Made by a program: the position numbers and the translations under genes
Shown: piece by piece, positions 24,886 through 47,826 of the stretch
Layout: every line of letters starts with the position of its first letter
Numbering within the stretch: the stretch's first letter is position 1
Notes under the pieces: model-generated
Told to the model about the DNA's origin: nothing
Database searches by the model: none
The model's input: only the letters and a program-made list of their open reading frames with translations
NCBI GenBank assembly: GCA_009869945.1
Contig: WIXG01000045.1
Location: 265,918 to 329,917 of the forward strand
DNA length: 64,000 nt
Source: Mesaphorura yosii
Lineage: Eukaryota; Arthropoda; Collembola; Poduromorpha; Tullbergiidae
Direction of reading: 5' to 3'

Positions 24886-26384
24886 TTATAGCTTGATGCA
24901 ACTACAAACTGAAAATGGTGGCAGCCTGTTCCTGTTTTCATCACAATCCAAATCATGTTCTTCAGTCGTACAACAAAATCGGAAAACAGGCGCACATTTG
25001 ATGTCAGCACTGATAGGAAACTCTTTATCCTTTGCCTTGTTCATGTAAATCAAGTTATCATTAAACCCGATACATTTTACATCCATGCCCGAGCCTTCTG
25101 TCGTCATCGGATATCTTTTGACATTTGTTAGCCCATCTTTCGTGGCATTCGTAAAAAGATTGTACACGAAGTACTTCTTTGGAAAATAGAGTTCTGTTGT
25201 CATAGTTGTGTTCAATCCGGGCGTATTTTTGTGGCCGCGTCCCCAAATTAGGCTTTCACCTGACGGTCCATTTGTAAACGCGAACCAGTAGTAATAGCGC
25301 TGAACGCAGGTGGTGCCAACAAAGTTGATGATGTGATTGGCTAAGTCGAGCGCTTCTTGCATTTGTGTAAATTCGGCGTCCAGGTACGTACTGGAGACTT
25401 CAGTCATCCAAACGGGCTTGAGGACGGGAGCAGAGTCGCAAGTTTGAGATTCGACAATTGGTTCGTGCACGGTGTGATCGTAGTACGCCTTGCCGAAGTT
25501 GTGGACGTTTTGCCCGTTACCGCGAACGCCGCCAAAGCCCAAATTGAGGTTAAGCAAGTAGCCATGCGTTCCAAGTATCTCACACGCCTTCTCACAGTCG
25601 GAATTCCCTCTACTCAGAAACTGTTTCGAGATTGACATGTACGAATTTTCTGGGCACAGCGAGATCAGAGGATCATTGAACGTTGAAATCAGACGGCAAA
25701 GTTGAGTTGCGGTCATATCGCAATGGTTCCACGTGGCGAAAATGTTTTCTGGTTCGTTCACGGGGCTGATTTGTTCGAAACTGATACCGAACTTGACACT
25801 AATAATTTGCGTGGCATTCTTAATAAAGTGGTAGTAAGCTCGTTCGTACTCTTGTAAGAGCTGCGGTTTGGCTGGGCTTTTCATGTACAATGGCGGTGAC
25901 CAAATCGACGCGATGAACGATGTGCCTGGATAGCGGCTTTTATTGGAGATGAGAGAATGGACTTTAATCCAACTGCAAATTGCTGCTGGGGAAGAACGCG
26001 TGCAGGAAATGTCGTAGACGTCCTCCGAAGGTGAGAATTCCGGCTCGATTGATGTTCGAAAGAATCTGCAGTTGGAATCACGAATATTTTACATTTATCC
26101 ACTGCAACATGTAATACAGACTGTAGACCACGGACGTACCTCAGATTAAGATCGAAGTACAATTTGTCCAAGACCTCTTCCACCAGCAAGTTATTATTCA
26201 TCGCACGCAAATGGTTGACTGAACCTAAGTAGACGCCAAAGCCTTGAAACTGATTTGGACACGAATTTTCTTGATGGCTACGAGCGCCGTTAAAAACTTG
26301 ACAAAACAAGCAAATGATTGATGAGAGTATCAAAGTTAATTTTTGAGCGTCTGGTGCGTTGGTTTTGGCAAATTGGAAATGCAT
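24886..26384 (-). CDS. Secreted glycoside hydrolase family 30 enzyme, microbial-type
   Basis: Two exons (26384-26140 and 26065-24886) give about 475 residues. The chosen start gives a hydrophobic leader followed by NSCPNQFQGFGVYLGS, the beginning of a GH30 catalytic barrel. Seen in order: IASIWSPPLYMKS (substrate loop), ISPVNEPEN with the acid/base glutamate, NHCDMTATQLC, and VWMTEVSST with the nucleophile glutamate, then YYYWFAF. The C-terminal beta domain is short and cysteine-rich. GH30 includes animal glucocerebrosidase, but the spacing and motifs look more like fungal or oomycete endo-beta-1,6-glycanases, so the substrate is uncertain. It is the second of two hydrolase genes in the same orientation, about 480 bp after GH125. 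Intron-poor structure and motif type suggest acquisition from a microbe; this is inference. Confidence 0.8.
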
Positions 26385-26864
26385 TTTGTCATCGGAAAAA
26401 CTCAGATATGATTTATGAATGATGTTCTTGTGTTTTGTGCAGTTGTAAAGGAAGAAATTCGCTTTGCTGGAATACCACTTTGATTTTAATAGGTGAGTGG
26501 TAACGGCGATTCGCTTCAGAAAGCGGTTGCCATTCAATGCTTGGTGGAATGTGTCGGTGCCACTGCCATTATGGCCTTTATGCAAGCAGTCTGCACGCGA
26601 TTCCGGTTTAAATGAAACAACAACGGCAACCTCAATTAAGGTCGGAATGCGATTGTTAATTATTCTTTTTTATTTGATCAAAGGTGATGCTTTTGGTGAG
26701 TTCGGTTTGGATAGTTTCAATTTCAATCACAAAACAATTCAAAACGCTCCATTGGCTTTATTCAAAATTGCACAACAAAATGATTTCGTAAAAACAGTTG
26801 GGACAGATGTGATTACTTTGTTCAATCGATTTCAACATCAGCCGTTATAATCATTATCAACGAA
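26385..26864. other. Spacer between GH125 and GH30 genes
   Basis: It holds the GH125 3' UTR and the GH30 promoter region. A plus-strand open frame (about 26646-26850) begins with a hydrophobic leader but overlaps these regions and has no recognisable product; it is not called. Confidence 0.5.
26757..26762 (-). terminator. Probable poly(A) signal of GH125 gene
   Basis: TTTATT on the plus strand about 105 nt after the GH125 stop codon (minus strand). Confidence 0.5.
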
Positions 26865-28651
26865 TTAATCCCATACGGTTTCCCTCAAGATGTGCGGGTA
26901 CTGCCTTGCCAGATGAAGTATCAAATCACCAAACACAGTATTCGCCCACGCAAACCAGGCCCTTGAAAAATCGTTGGGATTATTGACATTGTACGACTCG
27001 TGCATAAATCCGGTTCCAGCCGTCGAATTGCGCAGCAGACCCAGTAGATGCACAATTTCGCTTTCGCTGGTGGCGGTCATCGCCTGCATAGCTTGCGCCA
27101 TGTGCCAGGGCCTTTGCAGGCCGGTGTGTGGTGAACCCACGCCAGGGTAAGGACCTTCGGCGAACCACGGGTTCCATTCCGAGGAAAGGATGTATCTGCG
27201 CGTGTTCAAGTAGATCGGGTCGTATCTCGACACGAAGCCGAATTTGGGAAGGGAGAGAAGTGATGGGAAATTTGCGTCGTCCATGAGCACATGAGATCCG
27301 TAGCAATCCACTTCAAAGGCGTACACTTGACCGAATTCTGGATGCTGCACAATCGCATGTTTTGTAATCGCTTCTCGCACTTCTGATGCGAGCGTCTTGA
27401 TTTCTGTGGAGAGTTCAGGCCAGACAAAGTTTTCGTCCAACACCTTCGACACTCCTTCCAGACTAATCACAAACATTGCATTAGATGGTATTAAGTACTG
27501 AAATATGGTAGAGTCGTCCGAGGGCCTGAAGAATGAACGAATAAGACCGCAGCGTTTGGCCGGATTACCGATGCCGTACAAATTGGTGGTTTCGGACTGC
27601 GTTAGTGTTGGACGAGAGAATTTGAACGGTGGAAATGGAAGAACTTCAATGCTGCCGCCCTGTTGAGCCTTGAGTGTTTGCAGGATGATTTCCACGGCGG
27701 ACTTCCAGTGTTGGTTGTACAAGAATGCGGCATCGCCCGTTTGCTCGTAGTAGTACTTAGACAGGTACAAGAATGAAGCCAAACTATCCAGCTCGTATTT
27801 GGCCTCAAAGACTTCGTCCTTCTCGTAAATTGGGTACACGATGTCGCCCTTGGAAGCGTCTGATTCGTTCAGGTTGATTCCAGAGTCCCAATGCTTGAGC
27901 GGGAAGAAAGCGTTTCCCCAAGGGTACAGCTCGATCATTTCCGCCTGCGTATTTATCACACCCAGAACCAGCTCTCGAAGCTCGGGGTCGTCTCTGGCGT
28001 AAGGAACGTATGGATTCACTTGGTAAGTCGAATCTCTCAGCCACATGGCCAAAATATCTAAACGAGAATTAAGGTGAGTGAAGGCAAAGTTTTCGGATCC
28101 CACTGAGCTGTAATACGAACCCGTACCTCCAGTAACGATGTATGTGTATGGCAGTGTCAGATTATAAACTGGCTCAGTAATATTTTTCCTGAAGTAGACG
28201 GTCGTGTCTAGAATTAAACACAGACATGGCGCATTGTTCATCAGTTCAGCAATTATTTCATGACTGAGCTGCGTACCGAGTGTGCTTGGCAGACAGTTGG
28301 TGAATATTTGCCTGAGCGTATCATCGCGAATCATGCTACCAACGTCTTCAATCACATCCTCGATCGTTGTGCTGTTGTACAGGCGGTCAGCTGGGTCAGG
28401 GCGAGCGGCTGGAACTTCAGACTCCAGCGGAGAAGCGAAACGACGACTTTGAGATACACTTTGAGACAGGGCGGCTGTTGAATTAGAAAATCAAGGTTCA
28501 GTGAATTTCAAGGGATTTTGGATGGAAGTTACATGTAATGAGTGCACGCACCGGACGCAGCGTGGATAGGCTGAAGGGCTCCCTTTTCTATGCAACCCGA
28601 TCCAAAGATGCAGCTCAAGTAAAGAGCAAATTTTGAGAAATTCGACCACAT
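26865..28651 (-). CDS. Secreted GH125 (DUF1237) exo-alpha-mannosidase-like enzyme
   Basis: Two exons: a signal-peptide exon (28651-28552, MWSNFSKFALYLSCIFGSGC) and one long exon (28474-26865), about 570 residues in all. The joined frame is continuous (GCC codon across the intron). Family marks seen in order: DILAMWLRDSTYQVNPYVPY, WGNAFFPLKHWDSG, YELDSLASFLYLSKYYYEQT, VDCYGSHVLMDDANFPSLLS, SSEWNPWFAEGP, GVGSPHTG, GFMHESYNVNNP and RAWFAWANTVFGDLI. GH125 enzymes are metal-independent alpha-1,6-mannosidases known mainly from bacteria and fungi. The likely substrates are mannans or N-glycans of fungal or microbial material, outside the cell. The conserved acidic positions (MWLRDS; MHES) are kept. 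A single intron, near the signal peptide, contrasts with the intron-rich neighbours and supports horizontal acquisition followed by intron gain. Confidence 0.9.
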
Positions 28652-41168: not shown

Positions 41169-41276
41169 GCGGTAGCTTGCACACATCGAATCCGGTGGTG
41201 CGGTGATAAACTGACTGAACTTCACTGAAGTCGTGAAGTACGTTCGAATCAGGCAAGGCCCTTCGCCTTTGGTGAC

Positions 41277-44131
41277 ATGGCAAGTTACACTTCTGAAGCG
41301 AGGAAAGTGCTCGAAGGCACTATATTCGACGAAGACTACGCAGATCGCTTCACATGGCCCGAGTATCTTGTATTTGCTGCACTTTTGTCAGTGTCACTTG
41401 GAATCGGAATATTCTATGGATGCTTTGGCCAGAAAAACAAGTCGAACGAAGAGTTCTTGATGGCAGGGCGATCAATGCCGATTTTTCCGGTCACACTTTC
41501 ACTTCTTTGCAGGTACAAGAAACTTACGACTTATGACACCTGTTTCATATTCCAGTGGTGAAGGAGTTATGATTAATCTTTCTCCTGCTTGTCGGGACTT
41601 CTTATTTTCAGCTTTGTGTCGGCAGTGACACTTTTAGGTACTCGCGAAATAGTTCCAAACGCTACGGTGTTTAATGTAACGAATACAGTAAAGCATTTTA
41701 ATTTTGACTTTCTCCTATTTAGGAAATCCCGTCGAGGTTTACTTTTATGGGTACGTAACCTGCGTTAATCATGGATCCCTCTTGGCACAAAAGTCTCTTA
41801 ATTTGAATAATTCTAAATCCGAAGACTTCAGTACTGGATGATTGTTATTTCGTTTGTGTGGATGACTCTTGCACTGACGTTTATCTACATTCCAGTTTAC
41901 TGCAACCTTCGACTCACTTCTGCTTTTGAGGTTATCAGTGGATTTACACTCACAGACATGCACATCATCAGACCGCGACAATGAAATGTATTTGAACCTT
42001 TACTTCTTTTCAGTATTTCGAGATGAGATTTGACAAGAAACTGAGACGAGTAATTTCGCTTTCTCAAATTATTCATGCGGTAAGAATTTTGGCTCATGTA
42101 AGTTCGTCTCAAATGAGAACTTTTGATTAAATGCAGTTACTATACATGCCGTTGACAGTGTGGGGTCCAGCAATTGCACTGGAGGAAGGTAATCACTGAA
42201 TTTAGAAGTGGTTATAAATCGTTCAATGTTCGATTTTTATCCAGTCGCAGGAATAAATGCTCGACTGACCAGTGCCATCATTTTTCTCGTATGCATCGCT
42301 TATTCTTCATTGGTGAGTGCGACGTTGCAATTAATTTTGGCCGGCAGACTCATTTGAATGGAATTGAATCAATGGCTTCTTAACAGGGAGGCCTGAAAGC
42401 TGTCTTGTGGACCGATGCAGTTCAGGCATTCGTCATGCTAGCGTCTCTTATATCGGTTATCATAATCGGCGTGAATGAAGTCGGAGGAGTTGACGTCGTC
42501 TGGCAAAGAGCGCAGGACACTGACAGAACTCGAGTTCTCAACTTTGACACTGACCTAAGAACAAGGCACACGTTTTGGACCGGCTTCATTGCCGCCTACT
42601 TTAATTGGATGCCTTTGTTTGCCGCAACTCAAGCACAGATTCAAAGATATTTATCTGTCCCTTCTCTCAAGCATGCGAGACAGTAATTGGTCCAAAATTT
42701 AGATTTTACAAGACTCGTACAGGAGGGGCAATATTAATTGTATTTTCGACCTTTCAGAGTTGTGTGGATTAATTTGGTTGGTCTTACCACGATTGTCTCA
42801 CTCTGCTCATTCATTGGTTAGTGAAATTTCAGTTGCAAAATCACAAGTTCCCGGCTATTGTAAAGTGTGACATTGACATCGACGGCCTCTTTTGCACAGG
42901 TTTAATAGTTTACGCTAAGTACTTTGAATGCGACCCAATCACTCTGGGGGTACGTCAGAAATTCGGAAATTATGAAGTTTACAGTGACGCGTTGATTAAA
43001 ATGCATCTGTTCTCAGAAAATTTCAACCTCAGATCAACTTGTCCCGCTTTTCGTTATGGACGTTATTGGAGACATCCCTGTCTTGCCAGGTAATCTTACG
43101 TTACGGGTTAGAATTTACGCTTCCTGGTAGAAATGAACATATGTTTTCTGTGTAGGTCTATTCGTGGCTGGGCTCACGGCAGGATCGTTGAGGTGAGACA
43201 TCGTTGGCGCGTATGCCCATAGCAACTCAATTCATAAATATTTGCTATATTTTTGTAGCTCTGTCTCAAGTTCGCTAAATGCATTGGCAGCGATCGCTAC
43301 AGAAGATTTTGTAAAACTCTACCGACCGAATCTGTCCGACACAAAACTGGGAGTCGTTTCGAAAGCCATCAGCACAGTCGGCGGACTGATTGCCTTTGGT
43401 TTAGTATTTGTGATTTCGGCAGTTGGGAATATTTTGCCATTTGCTTCACTTTTGCACGGAACTTTCCTCGGACCAATCTTGGGTTGCTTTACACTTGGCA
43501 TGTTTTTCCCATGGACTAACTGGATCGTAAGTCGAATGTGTTCTCTGATCCCCAGTCTTCAGAAAGGTCGAAATCTGAAATGCAATGCCCCTATGAATTT
43601 CAGGGAGTGATTCTCAGTCTTGCTCCTTCCGTCGGACTCACATTGTTTATCGGGATTGGTTCGATATTGGCCGGAAATGACAAAAAGCTGCCAAATCAAA
43701 GGTTATTTCTTGACCAGAGTGGTTGTTATTTGGATTCCAATGTGACATCAACGGTAGCGACCTTATTAATTGATTCGCGTGCCAATACTGCTTGGAAGGA
43801 CGAAGAATGGAGTCCAATCATCAAGCTTTTCTCTCTATCGTACCAGTGGCAGCCCGTCATTCCTTGTGTGAGCGTTGTGGTACTCGGCCTTTTGTTCAGC
43901 TTGATAGTGGCACAGTTTAAGAAGTTTCCACCAGTGAAGGCTAAGTACATGAGCCCACCACTGCTTTCATTATGGAAGCTGGTTTTGAATGAGAAGACAT
44001 TGGCGAGGTTCATCGATTTAGATGACGATGACCCTGTAACTGAGAAAGATGAAAGGTCACATATACCAGATACCTCTCTACCTGTACCTACATACAAGTC
44101 AATGAATTTTGATAACAACGTAGATAATTAG
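41277..44131 (+). CDS. SLC5-family sodium-coupled (monocarboxylate-type) transporter, copy 1
   Basis: About ten or more exons give a protein of roughly 590 residues. It starts MASYTSEARKVLEG and has the SLC5 core: MAGRSMPIFPVTLSLLCS, SAVTLLGNPVEVYFYG, VYCNLRLTSAFEYFEMRFD, LYMPLTVWGPAIALEE, GGLKAVLWTDAVQAFVMLAS, ATQAQIQRYLSVPSLKHARQ, FVAGLTAGSLSSVSSSLNAL and GNILPFASLLHGTFLGPILG. These are the sodium-site and substrate-core helices of the family, matching insect sodium-coupled monocarboxylate or multivitamin transporters. It would sit in the plasma membrane with about 13 spans. The C-terminal cytoplasmic tail is short. The second gene, in the same orientation 0.9 kb downstream, has the same exon plan, so they are tandem duplicates. 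The exact substrate cannot be read from sequence. Confidence 0.9.
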
Positions 44132-45011
44132 TTACGGTGGTGGTTTACGCGCTGTCCATGGACGCATGCAAGCAGACGTACATTTGATATGTTATCTGGC
44201 AACTCAGTAAAGTACTGTCTGCTTGATGTGTTTGAATTTGGAATTGGTACCTGATTGCATTTGCCTAGTTTCAACCATCCAGTATGACCAACTCGGTTCG
44301 ACCTTGACCGTCAATTCGCTAAACTGGCGTTATGAACGTTTACTACCAATAAATATTCATGTTGCATTCCATCTTTCCATCAAAAGAGCGAAACATTTAC
44401 AACATTTTTCCCGTCACATTAAAACATGAATGATGAACATTATTCATGACCTTAAGCAGTGGAATTGGAAGGTTCGAGGCACAATTGGTTGCAGCTTTTA
44501 CGCCTCCAAATTGTCCAAATCCAATTTAATCTTGCATTTCTGCACATTTCAACAGTGAGCTTATGATTTTGCCATGTACAATAGAATAAAAATACACCAA
44601 GTAGCTGAGCATGTAAGTAGTTGACGAACGTCATGCAATGCTTAATATCGATCCCCACTTCAGTTTCGAGTGGATGCTCGAGCTTTGTTTCAACTGGAAG
44701 TTTTGATGCTCATGTTACGCTATCGATGAATTACTAACAAACTTCAGATTGATTGATATTCAAATTGCATAATCAAAATATTTAATCAATTCGTCAGTAA
44801 AGCATGCATCTTTCGCATGCCGTGTACTCTGTTTCGAGTGTTGGAGTCGGCCACGCTTTTCCTGATAAAATGAAATTCCAAGCATCGTCTGGCCTGTCAG
44901 AGCCTATTCGTGTGGCTGCGCACGCATGCCAGTTTTTAATCATGAACTTTAAGGTTGCAGTAATGAGGAACTGTTAGCAGGAGAAATTGACTTGTTTCGG
45001 TCATCACCGTC
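44132..45011. other. Intergenic region between SLC5 copies
   Basis: It contains a possible poly(A) signal for copy 1 (AATAAA, 44348-44353). A stretch at 44862-44897 resembles 28968-29008 near the cadherin and GH125 genes. No gene is recognised. Confidence 0.5.
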
Positions 45012-47826
45012 ATGGATCCAGAATTCGAAGGAACCATTTTTGCGCCTCATTACCCGGACCGTTTCACATGGACCGAGTATGGCGTGTTCGCCGCCCTTCT
45101 TGCGGTTTCGATGGGAATCGGAGTTTATTACGGTTGCGTCGGCAAGAAAAATGCAACGAACGAAGACTTCTTGATGGCCGGACGGTCAATGCCCATCTTT
45201 CCAGTGTCGCTGTCGTTGCTGTGCTCGTAAGTTTCACTTTACCTTCGCTGTCCATTAGTCTATTATGATACGATCACGATTTGCTACAATAATCAACTTG
45301 GCTTTAGATTCATTTCTGCAATCACTTTCTTGGGAAATCCAGTTGAGGTCTACTTCTACGGGTAATTTTTCTTTCTCATGGCCTAAGTAATCAACCATTC
45401 GCTTCAGTTTTCTGAGATCTTAGATGATTTTTGCAGAGTGCAGTACATTTTCCTGAACCTCTCTTTTCTTTGGATGAGCTTGGCGTTAGCATTCCTTTAT
45501 GTGCCCGTGTATTACAATCTCCGAATAACTTCGGCGTTCGAGGTACGACTTGTCAAGTATTCACACATATGCACACGATGATTTTATAATGTCCTTCAAT
45601 ATGTTTCAGTACTTTGAGAAGAGATTCGATAGTCGAATCCGAATGTTGTTTTCGGTTGGCCAAGTTTTTCATTCGGTAAATCCCAAACCCTTCGCGTCTT
45701 CCTTTTGTGAATAAAACTGCATCCTCGTTTCCGACCTTTTCCTTAGCTTTTGTACATGCCAACGACCGTATACGGACCAGCCATTGCTCTAGAAGAAGGT
45801 AAAAGTCGTAGAAGGGTTGATTATACTGTTGTATTTAATGTTTCGCATATTATTTCGCATGTTCGCTCTTAGTGGCAGGAATTAATGGCATGATTTCGTC
45901 CGCCATTATATTCTTCGTGTGTATTGGATATTCCTCGCTGGTAAGATGTCTTGAGTCAGGTCTGGAACCATTTTGCTTTGTTTCTAATATTTGCTGCGTG
46001 TTTTGTTACAAGGGCGGGCTGAAAGCCGTTCTTTGGACCGACGCACTGCAAGCTTTCGTAATGTTTGGATCGCTCTTTTCCATAGTCGGAGTGGGAATAA
46101 ATAACATGGGCGGCGGCTTGGACAAGATTTGGCAATTGGCTAAGGACTCTGGCCGAACTGACTTCTTTAATTTTGATTTCGATCCGCGGACAAGACATAC
46201 AGTATGGACAGGTTAGCGATATATATGCAATTTATAAGACTTTTCGTCACTCTATGGTTTGTTTTGTAGGGGGCATTGGCGGCTACTTCATCTACATGCC
46301 TCTCTTTGCATGCACGCAAGCCCAGATTCAGCGATATTTGTCCGTTCCAACACTGAAGAAAGCTCAACAGTACGAAAAATCCGTCATTTGTCATTTACTT
46401 CAGCTCTTTACTTACTATCCACTTTTGTTTGTCCAGATGCATTTTCATCAACATGGTGGGTTTGTGGGCAGTTATCTTCCTGTGCTCACTGATCGGATTG
46501 ATCATATACGGAACCTATGCCATTTGTGATCCAATTCAGCTTGGGGTAGGAGGCTTGGCTTTAGTCCACAAGCTTTTATGCTCACATTTCATTTATTTAA
46601 TTTCTCGGACACTAGAAAATTGAAAACTCTGATCAATTGGTGCCTCTCTTTGTGATGGACGTACTAGGGGATATACCCCTATTACCGGGGTTGTTTGTCG
46701 CTGGATTGACGTCCGGCTCGCTTAGGTACGATTCAACAACCTCTTTCTTTCAACTCTCAATGTTAGTGCATCTCACATGCACTTCGCTGTGTAATGTTGC
46801 TTCACGCTGTTATCCATTCGTTAAACATTTCCCAACATTTTTCTTGTGGTTTTTCAATTAGTACTGTGTCGAGTGCGCTAAACTCACTGGCAGCTATAAT
46901 AACTGAGGACTTTGTTAAAAAGTATCGACCGGGCATGTCCGACACAAAATTAGGACTCATTTCGAAACTCGTGACTTTGGTTGGCGGAATCATCTCGTTT
47001 CTCTTAATTTTTGTGATTGCCGCAGTCGGAAACATTCTTCCCGTAAGCACTAATCATGATAGATTGTCAGATCGAAAAGATGAATTAGGCTCATGGATGA
47101 ATGATGAGGGTCTGTATCATTTCAGTTTGCTAGCGTACTTCATGGTTTTTTGGTGGGACCGGTTCTGGGCTGTGCGACTTTGGGCATGTTCTTCCCATGG
47201 TCAAACTGGATTGTAAGCATTCAAGTTGCTACTTTCCATTGAAATGAACAATGAACAAGAGTGTCTAATACTCTTTAGAAATGTTTTCTTTATTGCAGGG
47301 CTCACTGATGGCGATTTTCCCGTCCATGGCACTGACTCTGTTTGTTGGAGTTGGTTCAATTGTGGCAGGAAATGAGAAAAAACTTCCAAATCAGAAACTT
47401 TCTTTTCTGAACGACGGGTGCTACTTGAACGAGACAACCACGTCTCCTTTCATGTCTTCCACTATGGCGGCCCCTTCAACTTATTGGAAGGACATTGAAT
47501 ATTCTGGACTAATCAACTTCTTATCATTGTCCTACATGCTCCAGCCAATTATTCCCGTAGTCTCTACAGTTTTGTTGGGCTTATTATTTAGTTTTATTGT
47601 GGGGCGATTCAGGAAGTTCCCAGCTTTTAGTTCTAATTACATGAGCTCACCGATCTTAGCGTTATGGGTCCGCATTTTGGGGAGGGAACGGTTAAGAGAA
47701 TGGATTATTTTCGAAGATGAGAAAGAAGCTGCAGCTGATACGTTAGACAAAGTTGCGGCTTACACGAATCCAGACATATTTTCGATAACCGATGACGAAA
47801 AGAAAGATACGAATATGAATTATTAA
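45012..47826 (+). CDS. SLC5-family sodium-coupled (monocarboxylate-type) transporter, copy 2
   Basis: The start codon at 45012 opens MDPEFEGTIFAPHYPDRFTW, which aligns with the N-terminus of copy 1. The same motifs follow: MAGRSMPIFPVSLSLLCS, TFLGNPVEVYFYG, LYMPTTVYGPAIALEE, GGLKAVLWTDALQAFVMFGS, CTQAQIQRYLSVPTLKKAQQ, GLFVAGLTSGSLSTVSSALN, GNILPFASVLHGFLVGPVLG and TLGMFFPWSNWI. The last exon (from about 47300) encodes the final spans and a charged tail ending DEKKDTNMNY. Splice sites are at positions equivalent to copy 1. It is a likely apical solute carrier, with the specific substrate unknown. Sequence differences from copy 1 are spread over the protein, so the duplication is not recent. 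Confidence 0.9.

Follow-up and report, generated by a model that had tools for sequence, protein, structure and literature searches.

The locus described here raises the question of whether a glycoside hydrolase gene of microbial type is a genuine gene of the animal genome in which it lies, and if so, where it came from and what its product may do. The window, which is the whole 64-kb stretch of DNA analysed, corresponds to positions 265918-329917 of contig C45, and the genome searched comprises 93.0 Mb in 1127 contigs. The minus strand of the window carries a GH125 gene at 26865-28651, whose unspliced frame of 541 aa matches PF06824 with an E-value of 1.4e-142 (475.9 bits) and thereby bears out the family assignment of the initial annotation. 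The reading favored here, to which we give a probability of about 0.68, is that the gene encodes a putative secreted exo-α-1,6-mannosidase of the host, and that a microbe-type gene was taken up by an arthropod ancestor and is now intron-bearing and duplicated.

The gene is predicted to have four exons, all on the minus strand. Exon 1 (28552-28651) starts with the ATG at 28651 and encodes a hydrophobic leader; judged by eye, this N-terminus has the look of the signal peptide that had been claimed for it. It is followed by intron 1 (28475-28551, 77 bp), exon 2 (28277-28474, containing RPDPADRLYNS...NCLPSTL), intron 2 (28208-28276, 69 bp), exon 3 (28127-28207, DTTVYFRK...YIVTG) and intron 3 (28058-28126, 69 bp). 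All three introns are GT...AG introns in phase 1. Exon 4 (26865-28057) is 1193 bp, which is long even in a four-exon model, and encodes the greater part of the catalytic domain, with Asp307, Glu480 and Arg492 in the spliced numbering. A polyadenylation-like AATAAA signal lies downstream on the same strand (26757-26762), and its first base, 26762, is 102 bp beyond the stop codon.

Introns 2 and 3 were absent from the model of the initial annotation, in which a single intron is followed by one long exon. The first intron stands, but the frame 28474-26865 hides the other two. Both are in frame and stop-free, and since their length of 69 bp is divisible by three, they pass for coding sequence. With these introns removed, the protein reads PSTLDTTVYFRK and VTGDILAMWLRDS. 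The matching columns in 93 non-animal rows mostly read PNTLDTTV and DIxAMWLRDS, and the column conservation in these rows is 0.96 for the P of PNTLDTTV and 1.00 for both the D of GDI and the W. The spliced protein has 523 aa and matches PF06824 over positions 1-414 of the 414 in the profile (512.8 bits, E 8.7e-154, cut-off 23.4). Four exons are preferred because the Pfam score is higher after splicing and because a paralogue has frame-breaking introns in the same places; on the same two grounds (475.9 rising to 512.8 bits, and the paralogue introns), the single-long-exon model is rejected. In-frame, stop-free introns in compact genomes are a pitfall, as they can be mistaken for exon and lend a host gene a 'bacterial' look. 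The architecture of a leader intron and one long exon had also been used as an argument for acquisition, and this argument falls away, since three introns are present and two of them are inside the conserved domain in both copies.

The paralogue (L001) was found by a genome search at C42:182446-183612, with a CRAL_TRIO gene within a few kb. It has introns of 68 and 74 bp at both sites of introns 2 and 3 of the window gene, and these are phase 1 in L001 too. Intron 1 of L001 is ambiguous, as 64-bp and 37-bp versions each leave an open frame; the identity and dN figures for the pair were computed with the 64-bp form. The two copies are identical at 380 of 518 aligned residues (73%). A Nei-Gojobori (NG86) calculation by hand results in a pN of 0.177, a dN of 0.20 and a pS of 0.80, which is saturated. 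The saturated pS and the low dN mark the duplication as old, with both copies retained under purifying selection. With parallel gain set aside, the presence of the two conserved-domain introns in both copies means that they predate the duplication. The GC3 of the GH125 gene is 0.57 compared to 0.46-0.49 in five LRP frames, and this raised value tells neither the date nor the source of the gene.

The initial annotation placed GH125 between clear animal genes. This is confirmed upstream, where there is an LRP-type receptor with Ldl_recept_b repeats (Pfam). The gene on the other flank has DxNDNxP motifs, seen by eye, which we take to be cadherin-type; the five exon pieces of this gene that were tried gave no Pfam match. 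Next on this side come pieces of SSF-transporter and PLD-like type. Two adjoining sodium:solute symporter-like genes at 41229-47826 on the plus strand look by eye like a tandem duplicate, and one piece of them matched SSF. Rfam and tRNA scans of the 64-kb window gave no matches. The host is an arthropod, judged from RR cuticle domains (66 Chitin_bind_4 matches in the genome, partly clustered) and from the hemocyanin family (Hemocyanin_C, with 32 exon matches spread over 15 contigs). Against a nematode host, a TTR-52 search gave no match, but its control matched nowhere either, and the search does not enter this judgment. A Lipocalin_7 search for a protein of tardigrade type gave one ordinary FABP, which says nothing on the host, and COX1 had no match. 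The one hemocyanin-family frame that was examined scores 248 bits against hemocyanin 3ixv, hardly better than the 240 bits against phenoloxidase 3hhs, and so gives no narrower placement among the arthropods. The hemocyanin/phenoloxidase family is apparently expanded, with matches on contigs C68, C105, C185, C296, C313, C320, C327, C389, C423, C487, C553, C651, C685, C905 and C1029.

The best solved match to GH125 is the bacterial structure 3p2c (5.2e-100). Residues D220, E393 and R405 of 2NVP align with D307, E480 and R492 of the window protein and with D316, E489 and R501 of the paralogue, and all 93 bacterial or viral-contig rows keep these three residues in the alignment. In bacterial GH125, as a passage of PMC9425025 describes it, the Asp is the acid and the Glu holds the nucleophilic water together with the Arg. 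Since the Asp that acts as acid, the Glu that acts as base and the Arg that binds the water are all conserved, the arthropod protein is best read as an inverting exo-α-1,6-mannosidase, an activity that in GH125 is metal-independent. Its most likely function would be that of a secreted exo-α-1,6-mannosidase that finishes mannan cut by GH76, with secretion, catalysis and role all predicted from sequence. The enzyme might instead serve to turn over the α-1,6 arm of N-glycans, for which bacterial GH125 is often paired with GH38, according to a passage of PMC5215778. The arthropod GH125 is like the bacterial enzymes CpGH125 (2NVP), SpGH125 (3QRY) and BtGH125 (2P0V) in family, acid Asp, base Glu and Arg. 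It differs from bacterial GH125 in that it has introns and sits in an arthropod genome. In addition, 23 of its residues fall in columns that are gapped in more than 95% of the 93 bacterial or viral-contig rows, and some of its residues occur in none of these rows.

Elsewhere in the genome are two GH76 genes, L100:1054-2487 (C50) and L101:958-2561 (C43). L100 matches PF03663 at 2.4e-49, and L101 does so with its middle exon at 3.2e-24. A weak GH88 match (27.9 bits, cut-off 26.6) overlaps the GH76 match in L100. The Asp-Asp (DD) motif, which is named for GH76 in a passage of PMC12295086, is present by sequence inspection. The coding part of L100 is intronless and its neighbor is a neurotransmitter-gated channel gene, whereas L101 is interrupted by two introns, 69 and 65 bp long. 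The comparison set for GH76 consisted of plasmid-borne and solved sequences. Within this set, L100 is identical to an enzyme on a plasmid of Streptomyces sp. SAT1 at 245 of 466 residues (53%); an N-terminal stretch that falls outside of the GH76 match accounts for 84 of these identities, over 144 residues. The proteins of L100 and L101 are identical at 257 of 470 residues. The catalytic core of L100 is identical at 120/258 to CtGH76, at 139/253 to the Streptomyces enzyme and at 159/257 to L101. The best solved relatives are the CtGH76 structures of Chaetomium thermophilum (9r4k, 9r4o and 9r4p; 196.6 bits), but the arthropod GH76 is closer to the Streptomyces enzyme, with which it has the N-terminal stretch in common. 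The part of PMC12295086 that deals with the family counts 15,624 GH76 sequences, of which 9876 come from fungi and 5450 from bacteria with no breakdown of the rest, and puts CtGH76 in a secreted subfamily of mixed fungi and bacteria that is linked to glycan degradation. L100 is possibly a stronger candidate for transfer than GH125. One GH76 module has been listed in the host transcriptome of a rhinoceros beetle, where the relevant section does not establish whether it is the beetle's own gene (PMC10981690).

Another glycosidase-like gene lies 480 bp downstream of GH125 on the same strand (24886-26384). It has exons at 26384-26140 and 26065-24886, with an intron of 74 bp at 26139-26066, and encodes 474 aa. 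Three further copies (L006, L007 and L008) have 46-50% identity. The spliced protein of 474 aa reaches only 12.2 bits (E 0.11) against PF14587, below the cut-off of 27, and the unspliced sequence is below the cut-off as well. A profile of the four copies matches structure 7n6h (AcXbh30A) at 2.9e-11. The neighbor gene resembles GH30 but is not assigned as a member of the family. A search of plasmids with the GH30-like sequences gave no match at 0.01 and one weak match at E 0.9 for a paralogue. The GH30-like family has conserved cysteines near the C-terminus, and in L007 and L008 a Thr-rich stretch comes last, with a hydrophobic tail that by eye resembles a GPI-anchor signal. The GC3 is 0.84 for L007 (C1004) and 0.50 for L006, compared to 0.46-0.49 for the five host LRP frames.

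Relatives of GH125 are numerous in prokaryotes. The scan of bacterial and archaeal genomes matched at least 595 stretches, of which at least 594 encode GH125 relatives; the best 80 of these are 40-46% identical to the arthropod protein over exon 4, and 75 of the 80 are from Bacteroidota, going by record title. Plasmid sequences contributed 34 records that match the unspliced frame, all at less than 60% identity, and 12 of the 34 were taken into the comparison. Viral contigs contained one relative at 35%, and 16 of 387 Verrucomicrobiota genomes had a GH125 match. In a BLASTP comparison of the spliced protein with 114 sequences, the 25 matches listed are 40-45% identical. Three trees were built from the arthropod pair, bacterial GH125 and one viral-contig row. 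Tree 1 (FastTree) had 95 rows; tree 2 (careful setting) had 44 hand-picked rows; and tree 3 (careful setting) had 46 rows, 44 of them bacterial, made up of 14 of 20 newly extracted proteins and 30 of the earlier 93.

A joining of a microbial gene onto an animal contig, through contamination or misassembly, is extremely improbable. The three GT...AG introns, the AATAAA signal past the stop and the intron-bearing paralogue on another contig, near a CRAL_TRIO gene, make GH125 look like a genuine host gene. The saturated synonymous sites between the copies and the absence of any N in the window also speak against an artifact. The introns, the flanking animal-type genes and the paralogue on a separate contig are all evidence of chromosomal integration, and the argument that intron and flanks speak against contamination holds. 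A direct transfer from a member of the Bacteroidota or Verrucomicrobiota, followed by strong divergence, would agree with the prokaryotic relatives at 40-46%, most of the best 80 being from Bacteroidota, and with the top-scoring BLASTP protein, which is from a Verrucomicrobiota genome (43%). Trees 1 and 2 also set the arthropod pair beside one Verrucomicrobiota row (support of 93 and 87/79), and tree 2 placed the pair outside of 35 other rows including all 28 Bacteroidota rows (96/96). However, the similarity is about 40-46% to members of either phylum, and the link to the Verrucomicrobiota row was rejected, since it was gone once 14 more Verrucomicrobiota rows were added in tree 3, where the pair is at an unresolved fork. 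The stem of the pair is 1.11, 1.9 and 2.05 changes per site in trees 1, 2 and 3, and a stem this long makes the placement unsure. At about 2 changes per site, the stem gives no hint of the donor, and a recent transfer from one of the bacteria sampled would not be expected to leave it so long. None of the 93 non-animal rows has the T of INTQAE or the A that EAKYELDS contains. Together, the long stem, the lost link and these residues make a near bacterial donor among the sampled groups unlikely, and we regard direct bacterial transfer as improbable. The phylogeny that the initial annotation had proposed as a check has thus been followed for its bacterial part, with no close donor among the bacteria sampled.

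Under vertical inheritance, an early ancestor of opisthokonts or of animals would already have had GH125, and most of the well-studied animals would have lost it, so that the arthropod protein is an ordinary, seldom noticed lysosomal or secreted mannosidase. The three introns, two of them common to both copies, and the very long stem that parts the pair from every bacterium sampled are consistent with this, as is the absence of the same T and A from the 93 bacterial or viral-contig rows, though the blocks around them are conserved. We hold vertical inheritance to be unlikely, if worth serious consideration, and prefer transfer because of the company that GH125 keeps in the genome. The companion GH76 resembles the Streptomyces enzyme over its full length, which suggests that the genome does carry microbe-type CAZymes. 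In addition, the distribution passage of PMC5215778 names bacteria and fungi only, with GH125 'quite widely distributed in bacteria and fungi'. A microbial-type origin of GH125 is plausible, and, partly on account of sequence motifs, a donor of fungal type seems likelier than one from the bacterial groups sampled. The fungal GH125 proteins, which we take to be Mug157-like, are presumably the nearest relatives of the arthropod protein and presumably have INTQAE, VFE-KYELDSLA and related blocks in common with it. Six peptide words of this fungal GH125 type, looked for in full texts, turned up in no paper of those searched.

No animal-encoded GH125 was found in the open-licence literature searched. 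The section on the rhinoceros beetle in PMC10981690 lists 11 GH125 genes in the prokaryotic metagenome of the gut and none in the host transcriptome. The string 'GH125' is a sample code in PMC12212510 and a clone name in PMC5322392. A horizontally acquired GH43 is reported in Folsomia candida (PMC9460274) and a horizontally acquired GH45 in soil invertebrates (PMC13084967). These are likewise microbial-type polysaccharide enzymes in soil invertebrate genomes, but they target hemicellulose or cellulose, whereas the arthropod GH125 and GH76 would target α-1,6-mannan. The terms GH125, GH76 and mannosidase do not occur in the main text of PMC9460274. The GH125 gene described here is of an established enzyme family, and what is unusual is its host; it has an old, host-like gene structure and is accompanied by a second mannan-degrading family in the genome. 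The known acquired CAZymes of arthropods act mostly against plant polymers.

In the proposed mechanism, a microbe-type GH125 gene would have been taken up by an arthropod ancestor, its introns gained or brought along, and the gene then duplicated. The GH76 endo-α-1,6-mannanase would release α-1,6-mannan fragments from fungal cell walls. GH125 would then finish these fragments, probably in the gut or lysosome, by removing terminal α-1,6-mannose through inverting hydrolysis, with the Asp as the acid and the Glu and Arg holding the water. Family membership and catalytic residues were observed for this set, and GH125 and GH76 are present in one genome. The role in mannan digestion would further depend on secretion, a common tissue, the substrate and fungus feeding by the arthropod, all of which we infer. 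GH92, which takes off mannan side chains in bacterial systems as outlined in a passage of PMC12295086, had no match in the genome (its control matched in 3 of 14 genomes); without it the mannan-degrading set would be incomplete. A more tentative suggestion, which we consider somewhat doubtful, is that this arthropod lineage drew its set from two or more separate microbial sources, with GH76 as an endo-mannanase of actinobacterial type and GH125 as an exo-mannosidase of fungal type, and uses it to break down the walls of yeasts and moulds without gut microbes. GH76 and GH125 have two copies each, and the four-copy GH30-like family lies partly beside them.

The arthropod may therefore be able to digest the cell walls of yeasts and moulds with its own enzymes of microbial descent. 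If true, an animal-encoded pair of endo- and exo-acting α-1,6-mannan enzymes would point to autonomous digestion of fungi.
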